A stretch of 64,000 nucleotides of DNA from Isoetes taiwanensis (lineage: Eukaryota; Streptophyta; Lycopodiopsida; Isoetales; Isoetaceae), in assembly GCA_021234155.1 (NCBI GenBank), contig JAJEKV010000062.1, positions 1,284,602 to 1,348,601 on the forward strand, read 5' to 3'. Made by a program: the position numbers and the translations under genes. Shown here in pieces: positions 9,986 to 63,276 of this stretch (the first letter of the stretch is position 1; every line of letters starts with the position of its first letter). The notes under the pieces were generated by a model that did no database searches, was not told the origin of the DNA, and saw only the letters and a program-made list of their open reading frames with translations.

Positions 9986-10007
9986 ATATTAACGTTAACG
10001 TTGAGAT

Positions 10008-10117
10008 GCAAAAAAAAAAAAATCCACACGGTCATCTCACGCGGTCAGCAGGTCATCCTACACGGTCATCCCATACGATCGCCTATATAAGACCGTCATT
10101 CCACAGTAAACACCAAA
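10008..10117 (+). promoter_or_regulatory. Module 3 promoter, copy A
   Basis: A poly-A run is followed by four repeats of the form ACGGTCATC(C/T)CA and then CCTATATAAGACC with TATATAA at 10,084-10,090. The ATG of the Dof gene is at 10,118, only 34 bp after the start of the TATA box, implying a 5' leader of a few bases if initiation occurs at the usual distance. Confidence 0.6.
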
Positions 10118-11110
10118 ATGATAGAAGACGAAATGAAGATGGCGAAGCAAGGTGAAAGCTCTTAAAAAGGAAGACGGCAAGAGTGAAGGTGTTAAAAGTC
10201 TAGAATAATGAAGAACATAAAAAAGATGGAGAAGCGTGAACAAGATGGAGGAATTCAGGCTATTTGGAGCAAATGAAAGGTATGTTGTTTTGGAGAAAAA
10301 AGTTGCCATGTTGGATGACTTGTTGGCCCAAGAAAATTTCAATTCTCTATCACAGAAGATGACTTGGAAGCAAAAAAGGGATATCTACGACTCTCAAACT
10401 GTTGTAGGCTCTCAAACCCTTGAGGAATTGTTTGATGACTGACTTGCCAAGACTAGAGGAACATGGAATATGCTTGACTTTGTCAACGTCAAACAACAGG
10501 ACAGTGATATCAAAAGCGATAAATGCGTTGTTAGCAAACATTGAGTTGCCAAGCCTTCAAAATTGTTTGATGAAGACTTGCCTAAACTTTGTGAGGTCAG
10601 TCTAGAAGAACATAGGGACATGCTTGACGTGGTAAATGTCAATGACAAGTAGTAGATGGCTTGTTGTCAGAGATAGACTTGCCAGTCCTTGATGAAGACT
10701 TGCCAACATTTTGTGATGCAAGACTGAAAATGGGCAATCGATGAGGCCCCATTTGTGATGCAAGACTAAATGATCATGAAGACATGCTTGACTTGATTAA
10801 TGTCTGGAGTCAACAATAAGAAGAAAGGAAGCAAGCAGGGATAATGATGAGACATGTTGCTGGGATGAGTTTGATGGCATGTTGGCACAAGGCAGAATTG
10901 CTAAACAAATCATATTATGTTTTGATGGACAGGGCAAGCAGGGGTGATGATGAGACATGTTGCTGGGATGAGTTTGATGCCGGGTGTTGGCACAAAGGGA
11001 AAGATAGGGATAAGGAAGAACACAACACAAAGCAACATGTTGCTGGGATGAGTTTGATGCCATGTTGGGACAGGCAGAATTGCTAAACAAAGGCAATGTT
11101 TGATGGACAG

Positions 11111-12382
11111 CAATACTTGCGGGGAACACCACAACAGGTTGCATCTGGTGGGGGGTGAATTTGATTTTGATGCCTTATTAGCAGGAGGGCATTGTGGGGG
11201 AAAAGTCCATGGTCAATGCATGTCAATTACAAGTCAACAAGCTTGACAAGCATGGCAGCTGTCAACCAATGGCATCAACGGGAGCAACAAAGTGACAACG
11301 GCTCAAGGATGAAAATACTGACGATCATGCCCAAAGTATGACTGCCCTCGGTGTTTTCCAGTAGTGACACCCGTTTACGACTATTTTTGAGAATAAAAAA
11401 ACCAACAAAAGGTATTATTGCAGGAAGTCGTGGCTGACTGGACCATCGGGGGGCAAACTGAGGGGCCATCTCAACCTCGGCATCGTAATAAAAGATCAAA
11501 GGTGCCAATCGGTGATCGCCAATAAAAGATCGGGGATGCCAATCATAGCTTAGCGGCTACTTACACTCAACCACTTGTATGCAGTTATTGAAGTTGCATG
11601 GCTGTTGGTCATAAGAGACTGGTACAGTTATTATATTGGATAGCTGCCATTTGAAAATGCTTGTAAATAATCTGGCCAGAATATGCCTTTTGTAAAATAC
11701 TCAGCCACTTGTATTGTTATGGGCCCCAGCCTTTTTGTAATATTTATCACAATGTTGTCAACAGTTTACATTCTTTTGTAGATGCAGCAATAATTGAGCC
11801 ATTAGTGCTTGTGCTCTAGCTGTTAGTGCCTCATTACTAGTGGCTGAGACAGTAAGTACTTCTGTTACTGCTTATTGTGCTAGCTAATGCGACCAACCAG
11901 CCATAATGCTCCTTTAACTACTTCTGTTACTGCTTGTGCTAGCTATGCAACCAACCAACCATAATGCTCCTTTAACGTTAATCGCGTGGACCAAGGGTTT
12001 TGGACTAACAGTGCATAAAGACTCAAAAATGGTTTCTTAGATTTATGGAGGATCCTTGCCATGTCAGTTAGAAGTATTAAATGGATGGCTTGATCAATTT
12101 GACACTGCTACAAGAGTTTCATTTCAATTAGCGAGTCATTATCAAGATTGAAGAGAAAGATATATGAGTCATGTTAAATCTGCAACTCTTGCATTGAGAA
12201 ATAAGCAGGTTGGGTAATAAATTGCATTATGGTGTTTACAAACACCACAGTGCAGCACCTTTATCATCTGATGCGTTATTTGAGAATGAGTATATGAATC
12301 CAAAAGTGGCGGGAATTTTTGCGGCTTATTTTGTGACTTGGCCCGGATTATTTTCAGCTTATTTTGTGACTTGATGGACAGG
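11111..12382 (+). repeat. 1.28-kb tandem repeat, unit 1, copy A
   Basis: Begins at CAATACTTGCGGGGAACACC and runs to the next occurrence of the same start at 12,383, a period of 1,272 bp. It contains one Dof finger, a stretch with TTGTAAATA-type AT-rich sequence, and the FAAYFVTW-coding end. Confidence 0.85.
11328..11500 (+). other. Dof zinc-finger domain 1, copy A
   Basis: Encodes TGC CCT CGG TGT (CPRC) at 11,343, then SSDT and the FENK region. The second cysteine pair is damaged, and WT-x-GG-x-LR-like coding follows. Comparison with finger 2 and copy B supports the Dof pattern C-x2-C-x21-C-x2-C. Confidence 0.7.
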
Positions 12383-13559
12383 CAATACTTGCAGGAACAC
12401 CACCACAACAGGTTGCATCTAGTGGGGGTGAATTTGATGCTTATTAGCAAGGGGCATTGTCAGGGAAAAAGTCCATGGTCAATGCATCATTAGCAATTAC
12501 AAGTCAACAAAAGCTATGACAAGCATGGCGGCTGTGTATCAGAACCAATGGCATCAACAGCAACAAGTGACAACGCTCAAGGATGAAAATGCAAGGAAAA
12601 CGATCATGCCCAAAGTATGACTGCCCTCGGTGTTTCAGTAGTGACACCATTTTCGACTATTTTGAGAATAAAAAAGTAAACCAACCAAAGGTATTATTAT
12701 TGTGGGAGTGCGACAGGGACTGGACCATGTGAGGGGGCAAACTGAGGCCCCATCTCAACCTCGGCATATAATAAAAAAGATCAAAGGTGCCAATCGTCAT
12801 AATAAAAGATCCAGGATGCCAATCATAGCTTGGCTTCTGTACACACTCAACCACTTGTATGCAGTTATTGAAGTTGCATGGCTGTTGGTCATAAGAGACT
12901 TATTAGTTATTATATTGGATAGCTGCCATTTGAAAATACTTGTAAATAATCTGGCAGAATATGCCTTTGTAAATACTCAGCCACTTGTATTGTTATCAAG
13001 ACTGGCCATTTGTAATATTATCACAATGTTGTCAACAAGTTTTACATTCTTTAGTAGATACAGCAATAATTGAGCCATTAGTGCTTGTGCTCTAGCTGTT
13101 AGTGCCTCATTACTAGTGGCGACGGTAAAGTACTTCTGTTACTGCTTGTATGCTAGCTGTGCAACCAACCAGCCATAATGCTCCTTTAGCGTTAATTAGG
13201 TGGACCAAGGGTTTTGGACTAGCAATTGCATAAAGACTCAAAAATGGTTTCTTAGATTTATGGAGGATCCTTGCCATGTCAGTTACAAGTATTAAATGGA
13301 TGGCTTGATCAATTTGACACTGCTAAAAGAGTTTCATTTCCAATTAACGAGTCATTATCAAGATTGAAGAGAAAGATATATGAGTCATGTTAAATCTGCA
13401 ACTCTTGCATTGAAAATAAGCCAGGATTGGGTAATAAATTGCATTATGGTGTTTACAAACACCACAGTGCAACACCTTTTATCATCTACAGAATCGTTAT
13501 TTGAGAATGAGTATATATGAATCCAAGTAGCGGGAATTTTGCGGCTTATTTTGTGACTT
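12383..13559 (+). repeat. 1.28-kb tandem repeat, unit 2, copy A
   Basis: Second unit, colinear with unit 1 including Dof finger 2 and the FAAYFVTW-coding end. The same duplication is present in copy B, so it predates the A/B duplication. Confidence 0.85.
12606..12770 (+). other. Dof zinc-finger domain 2, copy A
   Basis: Reads CPRCFSSDT at 12,622, then FDYFENKKVNQP, then after a small insertion YYCxECDRDWTM around 12,691-12,730. The spacing C-x2-C-x21-C-x2-C followed by W-T-x-G-G is the defining Dof layout. NQPRYYC matches the conserved SQPRYFC of the family. Confidence 0.85.
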
Positions 13560-35261: not shown

Positions 35262-35790
35262 AAACAAGCTGATAGAGGAGAGAAACTAGAATAAGCATTT
35301 GTGATGACCTCCAACTTCAATTGCAAAAAGGGCCAATCGATTTAGAGACATGGCGTAGACAAAAACTCAAATCATCTCCACCGATAATAGAGCAAGCCTA
35401 ATTTGTTTGAATTTACTACTTGCCTCTTTTAAATTTATTTCTTTGCATGAAGTCAAATATTCAAATATATGCGCTTCATTTTCCTATTTACGTAGAAATC
35501 GTAAGAAATCTTGTAGCAAATTGTTATATCAAGGCCTAGACTTAAAATGGTGACACGATCTTCTCGGACATTCTGAAATATATATACGGGTCCACAATTA
35601 ATGATGATTTGAACCATAATGGGGGCAATGTGGCATTTTGAGAATAGATTATTGGTTTGGCATTGTGAAATAGATGTGATCTCTCATTGTAGCATATAGC
35701 TTCATGCTTTTCAAACATATGGTATAATGTTGAATATGTGAAATTTCTCCCCTATTACATCTTATTAACCTTGAGGATATTTAATGAATT
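35262..35790 (+). repeat. Segment D, copy D2 right part
   Basis: Matches D1 from 31,826 and D3 from 38,905 to 39,545. The D sequence between the two halves (equivalent to 30,996-31,825) is missing, so the interruption combined insertion with loss. Confidence 0.75.
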
Positions 35791-36047
35791 TCTCCCCTAT
35801 TCCTTACGTGGGCTGCAGCCCATCACGGGCACCAAGCACTAATAAGCGTAGCCGGGGTCAGCATCAAATCCACGATTGGCGGCACACAGGCGTGATTTCC
35901 ATCTGCGGATTTTTGGCTTTAGGGAATAACTAGCATCAAGTCAATGCAAGGCGTGAATTTTGCACCGCATCGGGCCGGTTAAGTCGGTTTTCTGGCTTTA
36001 GGGCATAACTAACATCAAGTCGGGCTCGCAGATAAGGTAACGTTGAA

Positions 36048-36228
36048 AAAAAAAACCATAAATCCACATGATGTAATGAAAAAAGATGTGGCTACAACGT
36101 AACACGGTCATCCCACATGGTCACCTTATATAGGACCACAGAAATAAGACCACGATCATCCCACAGATCACCTTATATAGACCACAATCATCTTATATAA
36201 GACCACGGTCACGACAAAGCAAAAGAAG
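36048..36228 (+). promoter_or_regulatory. Module 1 promoter, copy E
   Basis: A10, then CCATAAATCCACATGATG, repeated GGTCA(T)C words and three TTATATA elements. The last TATATAA is at 36,194-36,200, 35 bp before the ATG at 36,229. Confidence 0.55.
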
Positions 36229-36450
36229 ATGGCGAAGATGGCGAAGCCGGATCTTGTAAAAATTGTATGTTTATTATGGCAATGCTCTTTTCAGACCATA
36301 CGTCCGATAGAGACCATAGGAAATGTCATGTCATTTTTTTGGGCACTTCATTTTTCATCTCAGAAGGAGACCATAGGATATTTCATGTCATGTCATTTTT
36401 TTGGCGATACGAAATGTTATGTCATGCCAAGAATATTTCATTCATCATAA
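36229..36450 (+). CDS. Module 1 short ORF, copy E
   Basis: 73 codons from the ATG behind the TATA box. The start MAKMAKPDLVK matches MAKRDLVK of copy B. Downstream of about residue 11 the frame differs from B, so only one of the two is correct. No known domain. Confidence 0.4.
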   Translation: MAKMAKPDLVKIVCLLWQCSFQTIRPIETIGNVMSFFWALHFSSQKETIGYFMSCHFFGDTKCYVMPRIFHSS

Positions 36451-36574
36451 ACCCACATAATGTAATGACAAAAGTCTTGGCTAATATTGATATTAATCCA
36501 TAACGTAACATGGTCAAACAATGCCAGGAATATGCCGTTCATCGATGGCTCACAGATAAGGTAATGTTAAAAAA

Positions 36575-36965
36575 AAAATTGACCCACATAATTTAATGAC
36601 AAAAGACGTGGCTACAACATAACAGTTCATCCCACACGGTCACCTTATATGAGATCACGATCCGCGGTGAAGCAAAAGAAGATGCGAGATGGCGAGAAAA
36701 ATTTGGGCCTTCTTTGCAATGGAGTGATGTTTGAGAGAGAACCTTAAGATAATGAGACAAGCTCTTTGCATCGGAGGAAAATTGCAAATGGGTAAAAGCT
36801 TTGTACAATATAGCATGGGTTTCTCTTTGAAGCGTCGGCACAATAATAAGGTCCTCAAGGACAAGAATCCAAGCAGCGTTGGAACCTAGTCCGTCTTGTG
36901 TTTACGAGCTAATCGTGAGGAAAAAAAAAGAAGAGAAGCATCACACCTAAATGAAAAAACCCTAA
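36575..36965 (+). pseudogene. Module 2 with ORF, copy E
   Basis: Second A-rich run, TTATATGAGATC box, ATG at 36,682, then sequence matching the module 2 ORF (KSFVQYSM and SLKRRHNNKVLKDKN regions) with frameshifts. Confidence 0.5.
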
Positions 36966-37239
36966 AACACGGAGACTTACTCGCAATGGGCATTCACAAG
37001 TGTTAAAACCAAATAAGGCTATAATCTTTGAGGGTTCTTACTATTGTTAGCGACATGATTTATGAATACTTACTACAAAGGCGAGAGAGCCGACTAAAGC
37101 GCAAACTTCGTGTATATTACGATTTGAGGGAACATGAGTGAAGCTGCGTGATATTATCGAAGGGATATTATCGATATTATCATTGAGATAATGCGCTAAC
37201 GTTGAGATATTATCATCGATGCATCAAGTTAGCGTTGCA

Positions 37240-37366
37240 AAAAAAAAAAAAATCCCACGGTCGCCACCACGACCACGGTCCCGCGGTCAACCCGAGGTCA
37301 TCCTACGGTCAGCCCCCACGATCAACCTATATAAGACCGTCATTCCATTCCACAATAAACACCAAA
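37240..37366 (+). promoter_or_regulatory. Module 3 promoter, copy E
   Basis: A13, repeated ACGGTC words, then CCTATATAAGACC with TATATAA at 37,328-37,334, 39 bp before the ATG at 37,367. Confidence 0.55.
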
Positions 37367-37860
37367 ATGAAGAAAGAGAAATGAAGATGGCCAAGCAAGG
37401 TGAAGCTCTTAAAAGTGCAAGGCGGCAAAAGTGAAGGTGTTAAAAAAGTCTAGAATAATGAAGAACACAAAAAGAAGATGGAGAAGCATAAGCGTGAGCA
37501 CGCTAGAGGAATTGACTATTTGGAGCAAATGAAAGGTATGTTGTTTTGGAGAAAAGAAGTTGCCATGTTGGATGACTTGTTGGCCCAAAGAAAATTTCAA
37601 TTCTCGTCACAAGATGATGACTTGAAGCAAAACAAAGGGGATATCTCGACACTCAAAGCTGTTGTAGGCTCTCGGACCCTTGAGGAATTGTTTGATGACG
37701 ACTTGCCAAAACTAGAGGAACATGGAGATATGCTTGACTTTGTCAGCGTCAAAAGCAAGCAGGCGGGGATATCAATGCGATAAATCGTTGTTAGCAAACA
37801 TTGAGTTGCCAAGCCTTCAAGAATTGTTTGATGAAGACTTGCCTACGCTCAACAAAAATG
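37367..37860 (+). pseudogene. Dof-gene N-terminal part, copy E (truncated)
   Basis: Matches the first 450 bp of the copy B gene. The uninterrupted frame 37,478-37,783 gives the acidic block EELFDDDLPKLEEHGDMLDF, preceded by KEVAMLDDLLAQ. It ends within the next LFDEDLPT repeat, where segment D3 begins, so no Dof finger is present. Confidence 0.75.
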
Positions 37861-48339: not shown

Positions 48340-50442
48340 CATACTGGAGATAAGCTCATTTTCTATGTTGACATTCCTTTACATGGGTATTTCTTACAAA
48401 CATGCATATGTTGTGTACAACTGAGAATTGCATAGAATTACAATGCCCAAGATTACCCTCCCCCTTTATAGCTATCCATCGGGTCTTCTTACAAACCAGA
48501 CATGCATACATTACATCGCAGCTAATAATTGCATAGAACTATAATGCCCAACATCCCCCCTCCCCCTAACCAACAAAGAAAAGAACACCCCAAATGGCAT
48601 GCATTACCTTACCTGTATAAGATTACAATTTTACATGCCATGAAGTACATATAAATGCTCTATATGTTGCATATACATGTCCAATCAAAAGCGCCACACT
48701 CCTTGGATTGACTGTATTCACAAACATCATCTACGTCTTCAAAAATAATAGAAGGATGTATAACAAATATTGAGACCAATTCCACCACAAAAATATTTTT
48801 GCAAAAGCATGACAGGACTTGCGAAAAATGAGGTCATTTATCCATATTTTCGTCTTTTCTACATATAGAAAACGTACCTAGACATTTAACACTTAGAAAT
48901 TATGTTTAATTTGCGTTACCATCTATCTTAATGCTAGCAATTATGATATACTTAAACCCATAGATAATAAGCACGTGTTGAGGAGCACAAAAGTGGGTCT
49001 GGTTGTTAAGTTATACTGGCACATCGGTATAATCAAGAAATCAAATGCCCTCAAATTGGAATTTTAATTCATCTCATTACTTGCATCTCAAACCACAAAC
49101 GGTTCTTTATAGTGCATTCAGGTTCAATGTTAGGTTGTGAGTATTTGTCTGTGATCCAACATAACATAATCAACTTTAAATCCAAATACCACATACACAA
49201 AATCTATATATTGAATTCTATGTACAACACAAAAGGATTTCTATGGTATACTCAAGTTCTATGTTAAGTGTGCGAGTATTTGTGGGTGATCCAACATAAC
49301 ATAATCAAGTTTAAATCCCACTATCACACACACAAAACGTACATTTTGAATTCTATGTCAATGAATCTTGCAAATTTCCTCTATATTACGCTTGCCTCCT
49401 CCAAGCTACATTATCTATTCTTGCCAACAATGAAGCAATCACCTCTTCAAATTGTTGTTTAACGCGCAGCAACCGCACCATAACTAGTCAAAGTGTTAAA
49501 ACCAAATAAGGCTATAATGTTGAGGGTTCTTACGACACGATTTATGAATACATTCAAAATGCGCAAGCATTCATTTTAAATATAATGTTCGAAAATGTCC
49601 AAGAGAAAGCTATCATTCATTGTCAGGTATAATGTTTTGAAAACGCCCAAGAGAAAGCTACTAGTTCGAGGAAATTATTCTTTCTAGTAATTTAAGAGCA
49701 TGTAGCACCATAGGGGCAATTGATGGGGAGGCGGTCGAAAAAAAAAGTTGTCGAACCGGTGGCCTCAGATTCTTATTGTAGTGTATCTCACAAAGTCTCA
49801 TAAAATTGTGTCATTGAGCCTTCCAACTAGAACGAATGGCTAGGTGAATCCCCATTTAAAAAAAAAAACATAGTTTGTAGATCTTTGTCATAGGCCTCCA
49901 GATCAAGATCATTTTCATTGAAAATAGGTGCTTCGAGCTCTCGAAGTAGAGCAAGAAACAAAATCATGACGACAGAACTTGCTACAAGACAGAAAGCTAT
50001 GACAGAAACTGGCTACAAACCACGCACAAAATGCATCTCAAGCATTCCTTCACCCTAGATAATGCAGACATGAACATAATGTATTTTTACATTCATCGTC
50101 AAAAAACATGTCTTTGAACCTTAACATTACTACAAAATCTTGTGGTTATTGAACCCTTTGCTTTGCCAAACAAACAAATTGGAGCATAAACATTGCAGCA
50201 TAAATGGCAGAGCATGGATGTGGTCAACATGGAAATTCAATGGTTGCACAGAAAACAAAAATAACATTCAGTTGCCAAATGCTCTGAACTGATGCATCCT
50301 TGTGTGCTCTTGCATTGACACTTGTTCTGCCTTGATTAACTACAATCTTGTAGAGATAGTTTCTAATATTTTTCTTAACCCTTGATCTTGTTTCTAAAAA
50401 TCCACACGGTTAAGTTATCTCTTCTGATATTATCATTGAGAT
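48340..50442. other. No gene seen, copy B
   Basis: AT-rich. It includes the GTTAAAACCAAATAAGGCTA stretch (about 49,495) that marks the right side of the deletion in copy E. Confidence 0.5.
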
Positions 50443-50472
50443 ACTAGTAATGGTGCCCAGCGTTGCTGGGCA
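50443..50472 (+). repeat. Left terminal inverted repeat
   Basis: 30 bp, perfectly complementary to 55,230-55,259. Contains the internal hairpin GCCCAGCGTTGCTGGGC. Confidence 0.95.
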
Positions 50473-51146
50473 TATGTTTGGTACATGTAGATGAACCGAG
50501 AGAAGAAAAGAGTCGGACAGAGACTAAGTAACTTTGTAATAATGAGATGAGCTTCACTTGTAATGTATTATAAACTTCATATATTATAAACTTTGTAATG
50601 TATCATAAAACAAATATTACTGGAAACTTGGGATAAAAGATTAATACCTGCCAAAGCTCAACAAAAAGTCTCAACATGTCAAGAGGCTATTAAGAAATGA
50701 TAGATGCTATTAAGAAAACCAAGCTAAAGAGGCAATGCTATACCGAACAATTTAAAGAAAGAGATGAGATTGAGAAGTCGATATCAACATGGACTTGCTC
50801 TTTGACGTCTTAAGGATATTGTTGTTTTTTTTCTTTTTTTTTTTTTTTTTTTTTGGGGGGATATACGTCACAGGATTTTGGGAGGATCATTGCTGTTGAA
50901 CAAAAGTTTATCATAGGTGGATTCATATCTATATATGTGTACAATGGATTATTCTAAGGTTGTTCATGGTGGAGATTGAATAAGGGGGGATAGTGTACTA
51001 TACATCCTAAAGGCTTATCCCTTATCAAAGACGAATCGAATGCTATAACATGGTTACCAAGGAGTATCAACACCTTTTGAAATTCCCATATTTATAAATT
51101 GTCTAGGACTTAGTACTATATAAGGTCACAGATGGTTTGAACATCA

Positions 51147-51226
51147 ACAACATGGGCGGGAGGTCAAGTTATGTCAATCTAGGATATTATCATGGGCGGG
51201 AGGTCAAGTTATGTCAATCTAGGATC
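51147..51226 (+). repeat. 40-bp tandem pair inside the TIR element
   Basis: CATGGGCGGGAGGTCAAGTT starts at 51,151 and 51,191, with identical 40-bp units. Shortly after, GGGGTGGGTTGCATA-like 15-mers are doubled at about 51,359-51,388. Confidence 0.9.
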
Positions 51227-51781
51227 CATGGATGTATCTTCAAGAGAGAAGCATTTTTACCGGATTTAAAGAACATGAATATGATGCTTAAGATTCCTAA
51301 ATGCATAGAGCAAGGTCGTCGCAAATTTTGATATTTTGGGGTAAAAAAACATGAAGATAGGGGTGGGTTGCATAGGGGTGGGTTGCAAAGATAAAAATGC
51401 TCACATCTATTAAGTTTTGTAAGCAACAGTAAAAATGGCAATGATCCAATCTTTGCACTATGTAAACTAAACCTTGTAAGCAAAACCTTGAGCCTTTAAC
51501 ACTCAATGCTTAGAATATTTAATTAGCTTCAAACAATGCACAAAGACAACACAACAGATTACTGCTTGTATGCAACAATCAAGTGCAAGCAGTTAAGCCT
51601 TGTTAAATATCCAGTATGTAATGAAGCTCATTTAAATTATTTTCTTTCTATCAAAGTTATACAGGCACCACATATGCAAAGAATCCATTACAAATTTCTC
51701 AATGATGCTGAAATATAGGTGGGTTGAATATAATCCACGGATGATATTCAAATGGTGGTCGACCGGTAGTAGCCAGTATCT

Positions 51782-52300
51782 GCTCAGTATCTGCTGTCGT
51801 AACCATGAGCTCTGCTTTAACCCTGTTTAACGTCTTCGTGGCTGCAAAATGCAATGATTAGAACAAAAGGAATGAGAAAAAAACTGCACTTATCTGTTAA
51901 CAAAATATAAACTTTCATTTGCTCCCTTCTTCAGCTGCTTATAGTTTGCAGCTTGAGCTAAAAGATTAATACCTTCAGCAAATAGTGGCAAATGCAACAA
52001 ATATCTCCAATGGCTCAGTATCTGCTGCCATAACCATGAACTCTGCTTTACCTCTGTTTTAACGTCTTCGTGGCTGCAAAATGCAATGATTAGCACAGAA
52101 GGAATGAGAAAAAATTTGCAATTATCTATTAACACAATATGCACTTTCACTTGCTCCCTAGCTGCTTGTAGTTTGCAGCTTGAGCTAAAAGATTAATACC
52201 TTCAGCAAATAGCGGCAAATGCAACAAAAATCTCCAATAGCTCAGTATCTGCTGTCATAACCACGAACTTTGCTATGTTTAAAGTCTTTGTGGTTGCATG
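51782..52300 (+). repeat. 229-bp tandem repeat inside the TIR element
   Basis: GCTCAGTATCTGCTG starts at 51,782, 52,013 and 52,240 (periods 231 and 227 bp). Two full units and a partial third. Units contain GTCTTCGTGGCTGCAAAATG and CAAATGCAACAAATATCTCC. No coding signal. Confidence 0.9.
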
Positions 52301-53525
52301 GGAAGTAGAAATGATTCTGCATGGAAAGATTATAACGTGAGTTCCATGTTCTGCCCAACATCATTTCAAACTCAAAACTCAAATCTCAATTGACAGAACT
52401 CAAATCTCCAATTGAAAAACTCAAAACAAATCTGCATTCTAAGGCAAAAAATATTTTTTTACCTTAGTTTCATTCATCCGAACAAAGGCATAGCTACTAT
52501 CAGCAGATCTGACACATCGGGAAAAGCCTCAGAGCTGAGTCTTAAATAATGCTGAAAATTAAACCAAGATTTAAAAAATTTTAATTGCACAATGCAGCCC
52601 AGCTCTGAAGATCCCACAAAGCTACAATTATAGAGATTATTCAAATGTGCATGAAATTGCAATTATACCTTAAGCCACAACAATTCAGAAAAAGCATGTG
52701 TTCTAAACTATATTACTAACCGAAGGAAAGTTTGGAGCTTTGAGCCCAGATGTTTCTGTCTTGGCGCATAATAGTAGCAGCGAAGAGAAGACCATTTCCA
52801 GAGCTGCCAGCAAGTGATCATCAACGTAAGTCTTCCAAGACATAGCTGTATATGCCGAAGGAGATAGGGCAAGGCAAGATCTGGATATTGTGTCATAGCT
52901 CATAGCACCCTGTAGAATCCACCTTAGTGCAAACCCAGTGAGGCATAGACCCTGTGAGCAATGGTTCATCGACCAAGCCAAACCCTGTGAGGCATAAATC
53001 CGTAGCAACCAGCATTATAAGCATATAAGCATCAGATCCAGAGCGTCAGGTAGCCTCTACAGAGATGCTGCACCAATAAATCTTGTATTGTCGTAAACCT
53101 GGTGGGGAAATCTTCCAAGAGTCTGCACAAAAGAGAACATACGGCAAAAAAAACATAAATCGATTGTCAAGGACATCGGATGTCAAGAATGAACTTTGCT
53201 TCTTCAGCTTCATGTCGATTCAGTTGGTAATGGATCAGCTGGACGTAATGCAACAGAAGAATGTGAAACCGAAAACAGAAGAGAAAAAATTGCAGCGGAA
53301 ACAAAGAGAAACCTAGAAAAAAAACCTAAAGGTGAAATCTCGGCCTTTAAATTAAGTTCGAAAATCTGAGCCGTCCAAATTAGGGCGTGGTCCATTACAC
53401 AACATCTTATATTATAAAGTTTTAGCGTATGTCTTGCATCAAACCCTAATTTAGATAGTTGAGATCGTCTGATTGCATTTGAAGGCCGAGATTTATCGCA
53501 CAACTTCCCACCACCATGATTGGCC
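52300..53525. other. TIR element interior, unassigned
   Basis: A mixed-composition region with short frames on both strands (about 60-100 codons), none with a recognised domain. GTGAGGCATA words are doubled near 52,939 and 52,988. Confidence 0.4.
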
Positions 53526-53529
53526 ATGC

Positions 53530-55130
53530 TCTGATCTCTCAAGAGGAAAGGGAAAATGGCAGAGAAAAGGGCAAAGTGAGAGGCAAAAAGGCACGGGTAA
53601 AAGGGAAAGACGGAGAAGAAAAAAGGAAAGGGAAAAGAGCAACTAAAAAAGGGAAAAGAAAAGAAAGGGAGAAAAAGGAAGGAAAAAAAGACACTATAAA
53701 AGGAAAAGTGGGGAAAAGGGTGAGGATGTAATAAGGAAAAGAAAAGGGGAAAGGAGGAAAAGGAAGAAAAAAGGGGCAACGGAAAAAATGTGAAGACGAA
53801 AAGGGTGACGGAAGGGAAAAAGGGGAAGATAAGAATGGTGGACAGAGGGAAAAAAGGGCATGGAAAAATAGAAAGGGAAGGAAAAAAGAAAAAGGAGGCG
53901 AAAAAGGGAAAAGGGCATGAGGAAAAGGGAGAGGGAAATGAGAGAGAAAGGAGAAAGTGGCACGAGAAGAGGAAAAGGGTGAGGAAAGGAAAAAAAGAAA
54001 GGGAAAAAGAGATGGAAAAGGGAAAAGGGAAAAGCGAAAAGCAAAAAGAGAACAGAAAACATGGAATAGAAAAAGAGGAAAAGCGAAAAGGGGAAGAGGG
54101 TGGGAAAAGGAGGAAAAAGGGCATGTGAAAAAGGTGGAAAAAATGGAATGGAAAAAGGTGTGGGAAAATGGAAAGGAAAAGAGAGAAGGAAAAAAAAAGG
54201 TGGAAAGGAAAGAGGAAAAGGGCATAGAAAAAGAGAAAAGGATGAAAAAAAGAAGGAAAAGGAAATGGGAGGCGAAAAGGGAAAGGGGAAAGAAAAAAGA
54301 ACACGAGGAATAAGGAGGGAAAATGGAAAAGAGGAAGGGAAAAAGGGCACGGAAAAAACTGGAAGAGGGAAAGGGTGAGGAAAGGGTAAAAATAAAAGGA
54401 AAAAGAGCATGGGGAAAGGGAAAAGAAAAAGAAAAAAGGGCAATAGGGACGGGGAAAAGGGGAAGAGGGTAAGGAAAGGCGGAAGAAAAGGCAAGTAAAA
54501 AAATTTGGAAAAAAGGGAATGGAAAAATACATGGGAAAAAAGGAAAAGGAAAAAGGAAAGGGAAAGGGAAAGGGAAAGGGAAAGGGAAAGGGAAAGAAAG
54601 AGAAAAGGAAAGGGGGAAGGAAAGAGGAAAAGGGCACGGGAAAAATGGAAAGGGTGGGGAAATGATGAAAAAAGAAGGAAAGGGAAAAGTAAAAAGGGAG
54701 GCGGAAAGGGGGGAAGGAAAGGAAAAAAGGCATGAGAAAAAAGAAAGAAGAAAATGGGAAAAAAGAGACATGAGATAAAGAAGAAGAGGGTGAGGAGAGG
54801 AAGAAAAACATAAAAAAAAAGGCGGGGAAAAGGGAATGCAAAACGGGCATGAGAAAATGGAAGGGAAAAGAGAAAAGCAAAAGGAATGGGAAAAGGAAAG
54901 GGAAAAAAGATCATGAGAAAAATGGGAAGGGTGGAGAAAGGTGAAAAGGGAAGGAAAAAAACCGTCAAAAAAAGGGAAAGGGAAAGGGAAAAATGAGAAG
55001 GAGAAAAGGAAGAAAAAGAGGAGGGAGAAGAGGGTAAAAAAAAAAGAGAGAGAAGGAGAAAAGTAAATGTGCAGGGAAAATAAGAAAAGGGAAAAAAGAA
55101 AGTGTGTAAGAAAATGAGGAAAAAAGGATA
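53530..55130 (+). repeat. 1.6-kb purine-only tract
   Basis: Almost exclusively A and G on the plus strand, with isolated CAT/CAC words. The core 54,556-54,597 is a perfect (GGGAAA)7 run. GGGCATG-GAAAA-like words recur roughly every 60-110 bp (for example near 53,857, 54,119, 54,218, 54,338, 54,730 and 54,846), implying a degenerate longer unit. The long pyrimidine-strand frames of 480-566 codons are consequences of composition, not genes. Such tracts can adopt triplex DNA. Confidence 0.95.
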
Positions 55131-55229
55131 TGCAGGATAGAGCAAAGGGAAGATTGGTTTCTATTATATTAGATGTATAAAAATGAGTCTGAGCTGAATA
55201 GGTTTCCATCCACAAATGTTCCCAACATT

Positions 55230-55259
55230 TGCCCAGCAACGCTGGGCACCATTACTAGT
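55230..55259 (-). repeat. Right terminal inverted repeat
   Basis: Reverse complement of 50,443-50,472. Contains the hairpin GCCCAGCAACGCTGGGC. Confidence 0.95.
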
Positions 55260-55289
55260 TATAATATAAGATTAACGTTAACGTTGAGA

Positions 55290-55406
55290 TATTGCAAAAA
55301 AAAAAAAATCCACACGGTCATCTCACGCGGTCAACCCAGGTCATCCTACACGGTCATCCCATACGATCGGCCTATATAAGACCGTCATTCCACAGTAAAC
55401 ACCAAA
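55290..55406 (+). promoter_or_regulatory. Module 3 promoter, copy B
   Basis: A12, then CACACGGTCATCTCA, CGCGGTCAACCCA, GGTCATCCTA and CACGGTCATCCCA repeats, then CCTATATAAGACC (TATATAA 55,373-55,379). The ATG at 55,407 follows after 34 bp in the context CACCAAAATGAAG. Confidence 0.6.
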
Positions 55407-56482
55407 ATGAAGAAGACGGAAATGAAGATGGCGAAGCAAGGTGAAGCTCTTAAGAAGTGCAAGACGGCAAAGAGTGAAGGTGTTAAAAAGTCTAGAATAA
55501 TGAAGAACATAAAAAAGAAGATGGAGAAGCGTGAACAGATAGAGGAATTCAGCTATTTGGAGCAAATGAAAGGTATGTTGTTTTTGGAGAAAGAAGTTGC
55601 CATGTTGGATGACTTGTTGGCCCAAGAAAATTTCAATTCTCTATCACAAGAAGATGACTTGAAGCAAAAAAGGGGATATCGACTCTCAAACTGGTTGTAG
55701 GCTCTCAAACCCTTGAGGAATTGTTTGATGACGACTTGCCAAGACTAGAGGAACATGGAGATATGCTTGACTTTGTCAACGCCAAGAAGCAAACAGACGG
55801 TGATATCAATGCAAGAAATGCGTTGTTAGCAAACATTGAGTTGCCAAGCCTTCAAGAATTGTTTGATGAAGACTTGCCTACGCTTTTGTGAGGTCGGGTC
55901 TAGAGGAACATAGGGACATGCTTGACGTGGTAAATGTCAATGACGAAGTAGATGGCTTGTTGTCGAGATAGACTTGCCAGTCCTTGATGAAGACTTGCCA
56001 ACATTTTGTGATGCAAGACTAGGGCAACGGGAGCCCCATCACAAGAAAATGATCATGAAGACATGCTTGACTTGATGAAGACTTGCCAACATTTTGTGAT
56101 GCAAGACTAGGGCAATCAGAGCCCCATCACAAGAAAATGATCATGAAGACATGCTTGACTTGATTAATGTCTCGGTCAACAATAAGAAGAGAAAGGAAGC
56201 AAGCGGGGATAATGATGAGACATGTTTGGGATGAGTTTGATGGCATGTTAGCACTGGCAGAATTGCTAAACAAAGACAATCATATGTTTGATGGGCGTGC
56301 AAGCGAGGGGTGATGATGAGACATGTTCTTTGGGATGAGTTTGATGCCGTGTTGGCACAAAGAAGATAGGGATGACGAAGAAGCAACACAAGAAGCAAAG
56401 ATGTTTTTGGGATGAGTTTGATGCCATGTTGGGACAAAGCAGAATTGCTAAACAAAGGCAATCATATGTTTGATGGATGAGG

Positions 56483-57765
56483 CAATACTTGCGGGGAACA
56501 CCACCACAACAAGGTTGCATCTGGTCGGGTGAATTTGATTTTGATGCCTTATTAGCGGGGAGGGCATTGTCGGGAAAAGTCCATGGTCAATGCATCATTA
56601 GCAATTACAAGTCAACAAGCTATGACAAGCATGGCGGTATTGTATCGAGAACCAATGGCATCAACGGGAGCAACAAGTGACAAAGCAGCTCAAGGATGAA
56701 AATGCAAGACGATCATGCCCAAGTATGCGCCCCTCGGTGTTTCGGTAGTGACACCCGTTTCGACTATTTTGAGAATAAAAAGGAAACCAACCAAGGTATT
56801 ATTGTAGGAGTGCGGCGGGGGCGGGACCATCGGGGCAAACGAGGCCATCTCAACCTTCGGCATCGCAATAAAAAAAGATCAAAGGTGCCTGTCGGTTGTC
56901 GCAGAATAAAAAAGATCCGGGATGCCAATCATAACTTGGCTTTCTGTACACACTCGACCACTTGTATGCGAGTTATTGAAGTTGCATGGTCATTTGGTCA
57001 TAAGAGACGGGTACGGTTATTATATTGGATAGCTGCCATTTGAAAATACTTGTAAATAATCTGGCAGAATATGCCTTTTGTAAATACTCGACCACTTGTA
57101 TTGTTATCAAGACTGGCCATTTGTAATATTTATCACAATGTTGTCAACAGTTTTACATTCTTTTGTAGATCAAAGCAATAATTGAGCCATTAGTGCTTGT
57201 GCTCTAGAATTTGTTAGTGCCTCATTACTAGTGGCGAAGCGGTAAGTACTTACATTATTGCTTGTGTGCTATTTTGTGCGACCAACCAGCCATAATGCTC
57301 CTTTAACTACTTACATTCGCTTGTGTGCTAGCTATGCAACCAACCAGCCATAATGCTCCTTTAACGTTAGTCGTGGACCAAGGGTTTTGGACTAGCAATT
57401 GCATAAAGACTCAAAAATGGTTTCTTAGATTTATGGAGGATCCTTGCCATGTCGGGTTAGAAGTATTAAATGGATGGCTTGATCAATTTGACGCTACAAA
57501 GAGTTTCATTTCAATTAACGAGTCATTATCAAGATTGAAGAGAAAGATATATGAGTCATGTTAAATCTGCAACTCTTGCATTGAGAAATAAGCCAGATTG
57601 GGTAATAAATTGCATTATGGTGTTTACAAACACCAAAGGCAACACCTTTATCATACTGAGAGATCGTTATTTGAGAATGAGTATATGAATCAAGTAGCGA
57701 ATTTTGCGGCTTATTTTGTGACTTGGCGGATTATTTTGCGGCTTATTTTGTGACTTGATGGATGG
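56483..57765 (+). repeat. 1.28-kb tandem repeat, unit 1, copy B
   Basis: From CAATACTTGCGGGGAACACC to the next CAATACTTGCGGGAACACC at 57,766, a period of 1,283 bp. Contains Dof finger 1. Confidence 0.85.
56716..56870 (+). other. Dof zinc-finger domain 1, copy B
   Basis: CPRC region slightly damaged, then FGSDTRFDYFENKK clearly in frame, NQ-RYY after an indel, TGTAGG-GTGC for the second cysteine pair, then GGDRxW-like coding. Matches the C-x2-C-x21-C-x2-C pattern when the copies are compared. Confidence 0.8.
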
Positions 57766-58947
57766 CAATACTTGCGGGAACACCACCACAACGGGTTGCA
57801 TCCGGGTGGGGTGAATTTGATGCCTTATTAGCGTAAGGGCATTGTAGGGGAAAAGTCCATGGTCAATGCATCATTAGCAATTACAAGTCAACAAGCTATG
57901 ACAAGCATGGCAGGCGTGTATCGTGAACCAATGGCATCAACAGGGACAACAAGTGTGCAGCTCAAGGATGAAAATGCGTAAGACGATCATGCCCAAGTAT
58001 GACCTGCCCTCGGTGTTTCAAAGTGACACCCATTTTCGACTATTTTGAGAATAAAAAGTAAACCAACCAAGGTATTATTGTAGGGAGTGCGACAGGATTG
58101 GACCATGGGGGGCAAACCGAGGCCATCTCAACCTCGGCATGTGGGAATAAAAAGATCCAAGGTGCCAATCGGCGTTATGAATAAAAAAGATCCGGGATGC
58201 CAATCATAACTTGGCTTCTGACACACTCGACCACTTGTATGCGTTATTGAAGTTGCATGGCTGTTGGTCATATAAGAGACTTATGCAGTTATTATATTGG
58301 ATAGCTGCCATTTGAAAATACTTGTAAATAATCCGCGAATAATATGCCTTTTGTAAATACTCGACCACTTGTATTGTTATCAAGACTGGCCATTTGTAAT
58401 ATTTATCACAATGTTGTCAACAGTTTTACATTCTTTAGTAGATACGGCAATAATTGAGCCATTTAGTGCTTGTGCTCTAGTAATTAGTGCCTCATTACTA
58501 GTGGCGAAAGCAAAGAAGTACTTTCTGTTATCGCTTGTATGCTAGCTTGTGCAACCAACCAGCCATAATGCTCCTTTAACGTTAGTCGTGGACCAAGGGT
58601 TTTGGACTAGCAATTGCATAAAGACTCAAAAATGGTTTCTTAGATTTATGGAGGATCCTTGCCATGTCGGTTACAAGTATTAAATGGATGGCTTGATCAA
58701 TTTGACACTTTGCTAAAAAGAGTTTCATTTTCAATTAACGAGTCATTATCAAGATTGAAGAGAAAGATATATGAGTCATGTTAAATCTGCAACTCTTGCA
58801 TTGAGAAATAAGCCAGGATTGGGTAATAAATTGCATTATGGTGTTTACAAACACCACAGTGCAGCACCTTTATCATACAGAGATCGTTATTTGAGAATGA
58901 GTATATGAATCCAAGTAGCTTAATTTTGCGGCTTATTTTGTGACTTG
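57766..58947 (+). repeat. 1.28-kb tandem repeat, unit 2, copy B
   Basis: Colinear with unit 1, containing Dof finger 2 and ending at the FAAYFVTW-coding text. Confidence 0.85.
58005..58120 (+). other. Dof zinc-finger domain 2, copy B
   Basis: TGCCCTCGGTGT encodes CPRC. FDYFENKK follows, then VNQPRYYCRECDR in the next frame and W-T-M-G-G-K. The second cysteine pair is TGT AGG GAG TGC at 58,079-58,090. This is the clearest statement of the Dof signature in the window. Confidence 0.9.
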
Positions 58948-59073
58948 GCGGATGGATACGCCTGTGGCTGAAATAAACTACCATGTGATAGCCTTGGCAG
59001 TTCTTCAAGTTAGGATAATCTATTATTGCATTATGAGAACTGTGCCAAGCTGCTGCATGCACCTTTCCTGCTT

Positions 59074-59181
59074 GAGAACAGTTTGCATGAGATTGTGCTT
59101 GTTCATTTTGTTAGATCTATAAGAACAACTATTCAATATCTTTTGTCATCAATAACTTCCATCAACAATTTGTTTCGCTGC
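59074..59181 (+). repeat. 108-bp direct repeat left of PPR, copy B
   Basis: Pairs with 59,763-59,870. Shared text runs from GAGAACAGTTTGCATGAGAT through CATCAACAATTTGTT. Confidence 0.9.
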
Positions 59182-59324
59182 AAGTATGAGATCTAGTTTT
59201 ATAACAAAGACCTTTTGAAAGAATTAGTCAAAATTTAAGTGTCTTTTATAAGTTGCCCTTGAGTCTGATATTTTTGAGTCTGATATGTGATTGTGATGCT
59301 GGCAGAACCACTGGTTGTGACACT

Positions 59325-61062: not shown

Positions 61063-61176
61063 AATTTTCAAATGAAAAATTTGGGTCATGATGGCCATTT
61101 ACTTTTTATATATGAAATTATTTTTCCTTATCTATGTATGAGGTACTTCAAGCTCATATTCTTAGGCTCCCAAACG

Positions 61177-63276
61177 AGCTGCATGGTGAATGGCCAACTA
61201 ATTCGCGAAGTTTCTCCTACAACCTTAAGCTTGATTTTGCAAAAGCTTATGACAGTGTCAGCTGGGAATTCATGCATCGTTGTATGCTAAGACTGGGATT
61301 TGGGGAACAATTCACATCGGATATTATGAAGCCGCATATCTGCCTTTCGGTATTTATCTGTTCCATGGTGAGAGATCATATGCCTTTTCACTTTCGGTCG
61401 TGGTATTCCCGGGGATGCCCTTTAGCACCATTGCTTTTTCACAATTGTTCGCGAGGAGGCTTTGTCACGGTTATTCACCATTGCAGCGGCAGAGGGACTT
61501 CTCCATGGTCTTGCAATGGAGGACGACTACCAAGAGGTTTGCAATCAATATGCGGGCGACACGTTCCTCTTCCTAGTCGCTAATGATGAGAATCTTGCTT
61601 ACGCCAAAATGCTTTTAGACACTTTTTCAGCGGCTTCCGGTGTTCTTGTGGGGTGGCGGTGTGTGCTTTGTGGACATTGGATAATCAGGCTCAGGCATGT
61701 GTTCCACGATTATCCATGGAAATTACTTCTTTGCATGGGGCGGGCCATCAAGTTGTTGGGGATTCCGGTTGGCATCCATGTTACTATGGATTTGCATGGG
61801 AGGAGATCATTAGAGGTTTGGAGAAGCACTTGTTACGGTGGTCCCTTTGCTAAGTTGTCTCTTGCGGTGTCGCATTACATTGGCCAAGTCGGGTCCTTAG
61901 TAGTACCCATGTTTATATGGCATCCTTCTTTGCTAGCACCACGAGATCAAAGTCGTGAGCTCATTGCAATAGTTTGGAACTTTATTTGGGAAGGTGTCTG
62001 GGGAAGGTCTTTGTGGTTAAGGTGGCTTGGTGAAGTGCATCCTTCCAAAATGGTGATGCGGGTATGATGGACTTCTTCTTTGCGAGCAAAGTGCTTATTT
62101 CAAAATTCATTTGGAGATTCACGAATGGTGAGGATGATTCTCTGGTTCCGCCTTCTTAGACAAGCTCTTGGTCCTTTGTATCCCTCTAGGCAAGAAGGCT
62201 GTCAAACCAGTCCTACCTTGGGCTTTATTTCAGACTCTGCAGCCTTTTCCAAGCGCTTCTCCATTTTTGCGTGGCTTGTTGGCAGCATGGGAGGCGGTCA
62301 GACATCTTTTCTGGCCATGCCCCTCTATCCACACCCTATTGAAGACTCCATGGTGGTGGGCACCACTGCCTCCGACCCTTAGCACCTCCATTGGCAGCCT
62401 CAGTTCATCCCCTTACACAGAGACGTTGGGTTCTTGCAGGTGTTGTCTCTATTCAAGCATGGTATGAGGAGGGTCGCCTACTATCTTGCTTTGAATTTGG
62501 GGGCAAAGTTCTGCTCTCGATGGGATGTATCTCTATGGGAGAAGGTCGAGAAAATTTGCCCCTCATAGTGCAAGTTGGTGCTCTTTGAAAGGGTGCCATG
62601 GGGATTTGTCATGAAAACATTCACAAAGGCAAGCAATTTGTCAGATCAGTATATCGCCTTCTTTTACCACCACAACCCCTCCAGTTGCCAGATGGGTGGC
62701 ACCTACATGTTCCACAACCCACTTTGTGTCGTACATGGCGATGGCTTTGGGACAAGTTGCTCCACCCTAAAGTCTCTGTACTGTGGTGGCAGATTATCCA
62801 CAGGTGCCTGCGGGTTAATGCCTTTCGACATCGCTATGATCCTCGCATATCTACAGTATGCCCGCTTTGCCTCTCGGACGTTGAGACTCTTGAGCATTGT
62901 CTCTTTGATTGTCCTGAGGTTCAACCAAATAATGTGGTCCGGCTACAAGGTTTGTTTAGCGGTACATTGACTGCCGATGCATCCTTTTGGCGTCCTATCC
63001 CAGCGCATGGCCCTCGGCTAAACAAAGGGCATTTCATCTTGGTTCCGGTTGGCTCCTATGGTCGATATGGGAGTCGCAGACACCACATCTTTCAGGTCAT
63101 TTATTCATCTGCACACAGTGTTATTACAGTGGCCCAGAAAAAGATATTGACAGCCTACGAGTGTTCTTCCCTTGACTCAGAACTGGTGGAACGCATCTGG
63201 ATTCAGTATCTTCGAATTGATTCTTACCATTAGCTGCATGATGAATGGCCAACTAATTCGCGAAGTTTCTCCTACA
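61177..63276 (+). mobile_element. L1-like RT fragment between 45-bp direct repeats, copy B
   Basis: Blocks: LKLDFAKAYDSVSWEFMH (about 61,224-61,277), the RT palm; RGCPLAPLLF; YAGDTFLFL (about 61,550-61,576), where the usual YADD reads YAGD; AIKLLGIPVG (about 61,745-61,775); RVNAFRHRYDP, VCPLCLSD-VETLEHCLFDCP (about 62,850-62,915), a zf-RVT zinc finger; and a C-terminus to the TAG at 63,231-63,233. It starts abruptly at the palm. Identical 45-bp sequences (AGCTGCATG(G/A)TGAATGG...) flank it at 61,177-61,221 and 63,232-63,276. There is no poly-A tail. The D-to-G change would inactivate RT unless it is a read error. Confidence 0.85.

Follow-up and report, generated by a model that had tools for sequence, protein, structure and literature searches.

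The question raised by this locus is whether a plant gene can carry Dof-type zinc fingers behind a long acidic region, near the C-terminus of its product, and whether two of them belong to one protein. The window (the whole stretch of 64,000 nucleotides analysed here, from Isoetes taiwanensis, C1070:1284602-1348601) contains a gene copy that begins at the ATG at position 55407 and includes the acidic repeats. We consider it quite probable that this gene is a locally duplicated, mostly miscalled, single-finger copy of a Dof-related transcription factor family that is apparently lineage-specific and whose members are putative activators. Loci read from this genome are given L-numbers, and the class names A to F were coined in this analysis. 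The features of the window are as follows.

9988 to 12300, forward strand: second copy of the gene in the window (C1070:1294589), with disturbed frames, placed by DNA search, tblastn and CDS comparison.
12371 to 13532, forward strand: 3' duplicate of the copy at 9988, with a finger at 12613-12750 (PF02701, 46.1 bits) that has one TGA inside.
37235 to 37849, forward strand: N-terminal partial copy of the gene, preceded by the upstream block (35452-36982).
50443 to 55259, no strand assigned: transposon-like insertion of 4,817 bp, located 147 bp upstream of the ATG at 55407 and bounded by terminal inverted repeats of 44 nt (93%).
55373 to 55379, forward strand: TATA box (TATATAA), 34 bp upstream of the ATG, with identical spacing in L009, L013 and L015.
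55407 to 56976, forward strand: damaged single-exon gene copy with an acidic N-terminal part and, towards the C-terminus, a Dof-like finger; the 493-aa ORF of L009 is an intact homologue (tblastn of the L009 protein).
55983 to 56158, forward strand: 88-nt tandem duplication in the acidic region, absent from L009.
56724 to 56858, forward strand: first Dof-like finger, split across frames by indels, ends approximate; its intact counterpart in L009 matches PF02701 at 64.2 bits.
57755 to 58953, forward strand: partial 3' duplication of the gene, 1.2 kb, with the second finger; an equivalent unit is present in other cluster copies.
About 58002 to 58132, forward strand: second Dof-like finger of the window copy, inside the partial 3' duplication.

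The layout of the protein was read from three intact class A genes, L009, L013 and L015, which are single-exon ORFs of 493, 481 and 491 aa, respectively. L009 is the closest of the three and lies on the same scaffold, 121 kb from the window copy; L015 and L013 are each on another scaffold, distinct from each other and from that of L009. The class A proteins comprise a short basic start, an extended acidic region in which acidic-hydrophobic units recur, a KKRK cluster, one Dof-type zinc finger and a basic tail, and the stop codon follows approximately 40 residues beyond the single finger. The C-x2-C-x21-C-x2-C spacing followed by W-T-x-G-G is intact in all three, after 400-412 residues. In L009 the first cysteine is residue 413, and the Pfam Dof domain (PF02701) was matched at residues 410-453 of 493 with 64.2 bits, against a cut-off of 26.6. 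This cut-off was exceeded by 10/10 proteins in one test set and by 5/5 in another, and a structure-chain search with L009 returned the Dof domain of CDF1 (PDB 8xuf; E of 1.4e-10) as the sole match at E values up to 1. The finger is located at 83-84% of the class A protein and at 74-86% in the intact class A-C ORFs (0.69-0.86 of the length in 10/10 class A-C ORFs, with the truncated L020 included). An alignment of 12 class A-C fingers showed four cysteines and both glycines to be invariant, and the tryptophan and threonine to be nearly so. L009 differs from L015 by 24 substitutions and one in-frame gap, and from L013 by 107 substitutions and nine gaps, all of which are multiples of 3. A Dof finger behind a long acidic region, as the preliminary description had proposed, is thus a real layout that recurs in this genome.

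The cysteine spacing with W-T-x-G-G had been called unmistakable in the window copy itself. While it is intact in L009, L013 and L015, neither window finger is whole in any single frame. Similarly, the Pfam check holds for L009, but the two fingers of the 55407 locus are too broken to be listed, and neither appeared in the genome-wide Pfam Dof profile search, in which 150 of 236 candidates were scored. The sole Pfam Dof match listed inside the window was the TGA-containing finger at 12613-12750. The TATA box was observed only 34 bp ahead of the first ATG in the three intact class A genes, a distance that implies either a very short leader or a translation start at a later methionine. Repeats of the CGGTCA type are present immediately upstream of the TATA box in the window copy and its siblings.

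The inverted repeats of the insertion ahead of the window gene lie at 50443-50486 and 55216-55259, and approximately 10 extra bases follow its right end. In L056, L057, L059, L060 and the copy at 9988, the match to 50001-50446 joins directly to the match to 55259-55284, and L058 showed the same insertion-free junction on reading. With this junction uninterrupted in all of them, the insertion is missing from every one of the other six full cluster copies. Its end sequence was found at at least 11 other places in the genome (among the best 40 of 352 matches), and as these matches start at the first base of the query, which itself began two bases inside the element, the end sequence is dispersed. 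The insertion is read as a putative transposon within the promoter of the window copy. A purine-rich tract at 53.5-55.13 kb, with 127 AAAG in 1630 nt, was considered as a series of Dof sites through which the gene would be controlled. This was set aside because the tract is part of the insertion, which the six other full copies lack.

Compared with the CDS of L009, the window copy shows 62 substitutions as well as 29 gaps, of which 28 are off-frame and 26 are of 1-2 nt. The trinucleotides CAG and CTG were disturbed in 36/48 and 17/23 instances, respectively, compared with 84/854 for 16 other trinucleotides; those overlapping CHG sites were also elevated (GCA 15/55, TCA 12/51, TGC 10/54), and this overlap blurs the control comparison. 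In the intact control L015, CAG was disturbed in 4/48 instances and CTG in 2/23, and in L013 the counts were 15/45 and 6/23 with 215/833 elsewhere, showing no clear CHG excess. Over a longer stretch, 58/94 substitutions in the window copy fell at CHG sites (11% expected), and short indels fell at or next to them in 20/25 insertions and 10/15 deletions (18% expected each). The corresponding values in the intact controls were 6/35 and 19/152 for substitutions and 0/4 for insertions. In the window's second 3' unit, changes were found at 35/54 CHG sites versus 62/388 elsewhere, and the same accumulation was seen in L033 (59/88 vs 93/854) and L030 (41/79 vs 73/719). The pattern was less clear in the copy at 9988 (36/88 vs 156/852), which also diverges considerably outside CHG sites. 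The L032 copy has only four substitutions but nine off-frame gaps, with few changes at CHG (6/88 vs 24/854). The frameshifts thus do not all follow the CHG pattern, and nine frameshifts beside four substitutions indicate assembly error in this cluster.

The assembly was produced from v9.4.1 nanopore flowcells with Guppy 3.1 flip-flop, racon, pilon and LR_Gapcloser, as given in excerpts of its report (PMC8566536). In a Klebsiella genome, approximately 70% of nanopore consensus errors with current basecallers occurred in methylated CCWGG, according to a part of the study by Wick and others (PMC6591954). Putative nanopore miscalls at methylated plant CHG sites, left unpolished because short-read mapping is poor in repeats, are consistent with the pattern in the window, and the broken frame looks to be mostly sequencing error, while part of the changes may be real decay. 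Under the alternative, the window copy would be a true pseudogene whose frameshifts are real and were left after duplication and transposon insertion. The transposon 147 bp ahead of the ATG, the 88-nt internal duplication, the 36/94 substitutions outside CHG sites and the stops in many other family copies would be consistent with this, but the concentration of changes at CAG and CTG (53/71 together) and the frameshifts of L032, which point to assembly error, speak for miscalling. The substitution spectrum (n = 94) weighs in the same direction, as A to G was the commonest single change (24), and C to T (10) and G to A (16) together give 26 deamination-type changes. The same count argues against C-to-T deamination as the main source of the CHG changes. 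We therefore consider a true pseudogene rather unlikely, and favour a copy whose frame is largely miscalled.

The finger DNA does occur twice at this locus, as had been described, but not within one protein. The first finger is separated from the 3' duplication that carries the second by approximately 0.8 kb with many stops in all three frames, the longest listed ORF between the fingers being 79 aa, and two fingers in one open frame were found neither here nor in the intact siblings. A genuine two-finger protein would have to arise by readthrough or splicing over this spacer. In its favour, a second 3' unit is shared by 5/7 full copies at C1070:1.14-1.46 Mb (DNA search, among the best 40 of 69 matches), and L010 and L011 each have this finger in an intact 130-aa ORF, which has no acidic region. 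However, L009, L013 and L015 all terminate after one finger, and the duplication at 57755-58953 has neither the promoter nor the N-terminal part of the gene. As the intact siblings are single-fingered and the second finger lies in a 3' gene fragment, the two-finger protein was rejected, and such a product is extremely unlikely. The preliminary description had also suggested a selfish element with its own regulator, in which case a transposable element would spread the genes, either as its cargo or as components of its own. Copies are indeed present on several scaffolds (among them C1070, C907, C1089, C1037, C1 and C1081), and the homology of three dispersed copies to the window begins at nearly one point (55289-55312). 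Two of the loci (L029, which is the locus of L015, and L030) nevertheless match each other beyond this start, to approximately 5 kb before the gene, the 3' ends of the homology vary (57402, 57689 and 57723), and only weak inverted repeats (70-79% over 25-28 nt) surround the three dispersed copies, while the transposon in the promoter is a separate element. The 2.7-kb upstream block of L029 matches gene-copy regions (best 40 of 375 matches), with one exception, a short match on C1027, among the matches listed; the gene and its upstream DNA thus share one small set of regions, a pattern resembling segmental duplication. Of the 16 window ORFs with at least 130 aa, 10 were searched, and none of these showed a transposase. 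Because the upstream block was duplicated along with the gene and the homology of L029 and L030 continues upstream, segmental duplication is favoured over transposition, and spread by a transposable element is improbable. The family copies are indicated to have multiplied through segmental and tandem duplication. A LINE-like reverse transcriptase remnant was also observed in the window at 61134-63233; its RVT_1 match of 20.8 bits falls short of the cut-off, and its zf-RVT match of 45.4 bits exceeds it.

The Dof profile search covered the genome of 1,658,258,908 bp in 1110 contigs; with 150 of 236 candidates scored and broken copies missed, it gave at least 123 Dof matches above the cut-off, which correspond to at least 119 places (merged at 3 kb) on at least 50 contigs. 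At least 56 of these places, about half, are in at least 10 clusters of three or more with neighbours less than 400 kb apart. Among the matches listed were five canonical Dofs (L001-L005, 117-122 bits), a sixth, TGA-bearing relative of one of them (86 bits), and non-canonical Dof-like matches of 30-77 bits. Reading of approximately 45 loci allowed sorting into the following classes.

Class A (the window copy and L009): acidic, with a C-terminal finger.
Class B (C1034:22.6-24.45 Mb, L007 and L008): acidic, with a C-terminal finger.
Class C (L014, L017, L023, L028, L041 and others): acidic, with a C-terminal finger.
Class D (L012, L018, L019 and L048): N-terminal finger.
Class E (L022, L046 and L047): Dof finger after an acidic stretch.
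Class F (L024-L026 aligned, L049-L052 read): N-terminal, with three cysteines and a conserved histidine.

The class B region is a dense cluster in which many copies have stops and L007 and L008 are intact. In L022 (590-1291, reverse strand) and L055 (366-710, reverse strand), the Dof finger is followed in the same frame by an unlike, zinc-ribbon-like Cys4 motif; no Pfam family matched this second motif above its cut-off, and no start codon was visible in the L055 ORF. In class F, the conserved histidine follows approximately 12-25 residues after the three cysteines and precedes a conserved stretch, and this class is possibly a Cys3His derivative of the Dof finger. A finger tree (37 rows, 46 columns) separated the five canonical Dofs from 32 divergent fingers with support of 100/97. 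With 46 columns, 15/34 inner branches open and long branches meeting, the relations among the divergent fingers are unsure, and a single clade of classes A, B and C was neither rejected nor shown (p-AU 0.437). On a broader reading, quillworts would have evolved a separate Dof superfamily that continues to multiply, with at least 113 of the at least 119 places, several new designs and many working regulators. The designs would be an acidic activator whose finger is C-terminal, a protein in which an unlike zinc-ribbon motif comes after the Dof finger (L022 and L055), and a Cys3 plus His derivative with its own following domain. This broader reading is tentative, and we lean slightly against it.

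Among the intact class A copies, dN/dS was 0.52-0.57; other values were 0.50 for L007/L008, 0.67 for L014/L017, 0.56 for L017/L020 and 0.23 for a class D pair. Values near 0.5 in class A suggest weak constraint only, and the weak to moderate constraint seen overall implies that at least some of the genes are kept as proteins. The N-terminal part has a net negative charge in 9/10 class A-C ORFs (-7 to -45), while that of the truncated L020 is +8. By a rule devised here (40 aa with a charge of -9 or less and at least eight W, F, Y or L), activation-like segments were identified in 8/10 class A-C ORFs (all but L020 and L028), spanning 103-237 aa, and in 0/5 canonical Dofs, 0/3 class D and 1/3 class F proteins. 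KKRK is present in 9/10 class A-C ORFs and absent from L023. We infer that the family proteins may be acidic activators at AAAG-like sites. In this model, a class A protein would enter the nucleus, its Dof-type finger would bind AAAG-like sites, as Dof fingers do, and its acidic region would recruit the transcription machinery. In the class A finger, the NVPVGGGxRKNKR tail of canonical Dofs is missing and the C-Y-Y-N-N-Y segment is modified, so that AAAG binding is not assured. The window copy itself may be silenced, given miscalls suggestive of CHG methylation and the putative transposon within its promoter.

A lycophyte in which Dof-like places number at least 119, with about six canonical ones among them, would represent one regulator family changing its layout and size in a single lineage; as many places are broken, the number of working genes is below the place count. 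The locus also serves as a caution that nanopore assemblies of methylated repeats can disguise good genes as pseudogenes or odd fusions. No description of a Dof family with an acidic region and a C-terminal finger was found in the open-access papers on Dof, Isoetes and lycophytes that were searched. The word Isoetes is absent from the main text, as far as accessible, of a 2026 Dof survey (PMC13161181), and the word Dof from that of the I. sinensis genome paper (PMC10541799), the supplementary tables of which may list such genes.

Acidic activators in general carry repeated acidic residues with W, F and L. The acidic and W/F/L repeats of class A resemble these in composition. Dof proteins as a rule have a single, N-terminal finger and 200-400 aa, as stated in parts of PMC10842470 and PMC9897228; the same partial sources give 20-40 genes as the usual family size and 12 in Selaginella moellendorffii, and the accessible text of the 2026 survey gives 10-22 in three ferns and lycophytes and 100 in wheat (PMC13161181). 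An N-terminal finger with a regulatory C-terminal part was found in none of the 10 class A-C ORFs, while the fingers of classes D and F are near the N-terminus. With plant Dofs (PF02701, e.g., CDF1, PDB 8xuf), the class A-C proteins share the C-x2-C-x21-C-x2-C and W-T-x-G-G patterns, CPRC, NTRF/DTRF and QPR. They differ in the position of the finger (74-86% of the intact ORFs), the long acidic N-terminal part, the missing NVPVGGGxRKNKR tail and the size and clustering of the family. Judged by its sequence, the finger is that of a Dof, and its placement at the C-terminal end of an acidic protein is unusual. The canonical Dofs of the same genome, L001-L005, belong to the same finger family as classes A-C but carry the finger at 5-26% of the ORF.
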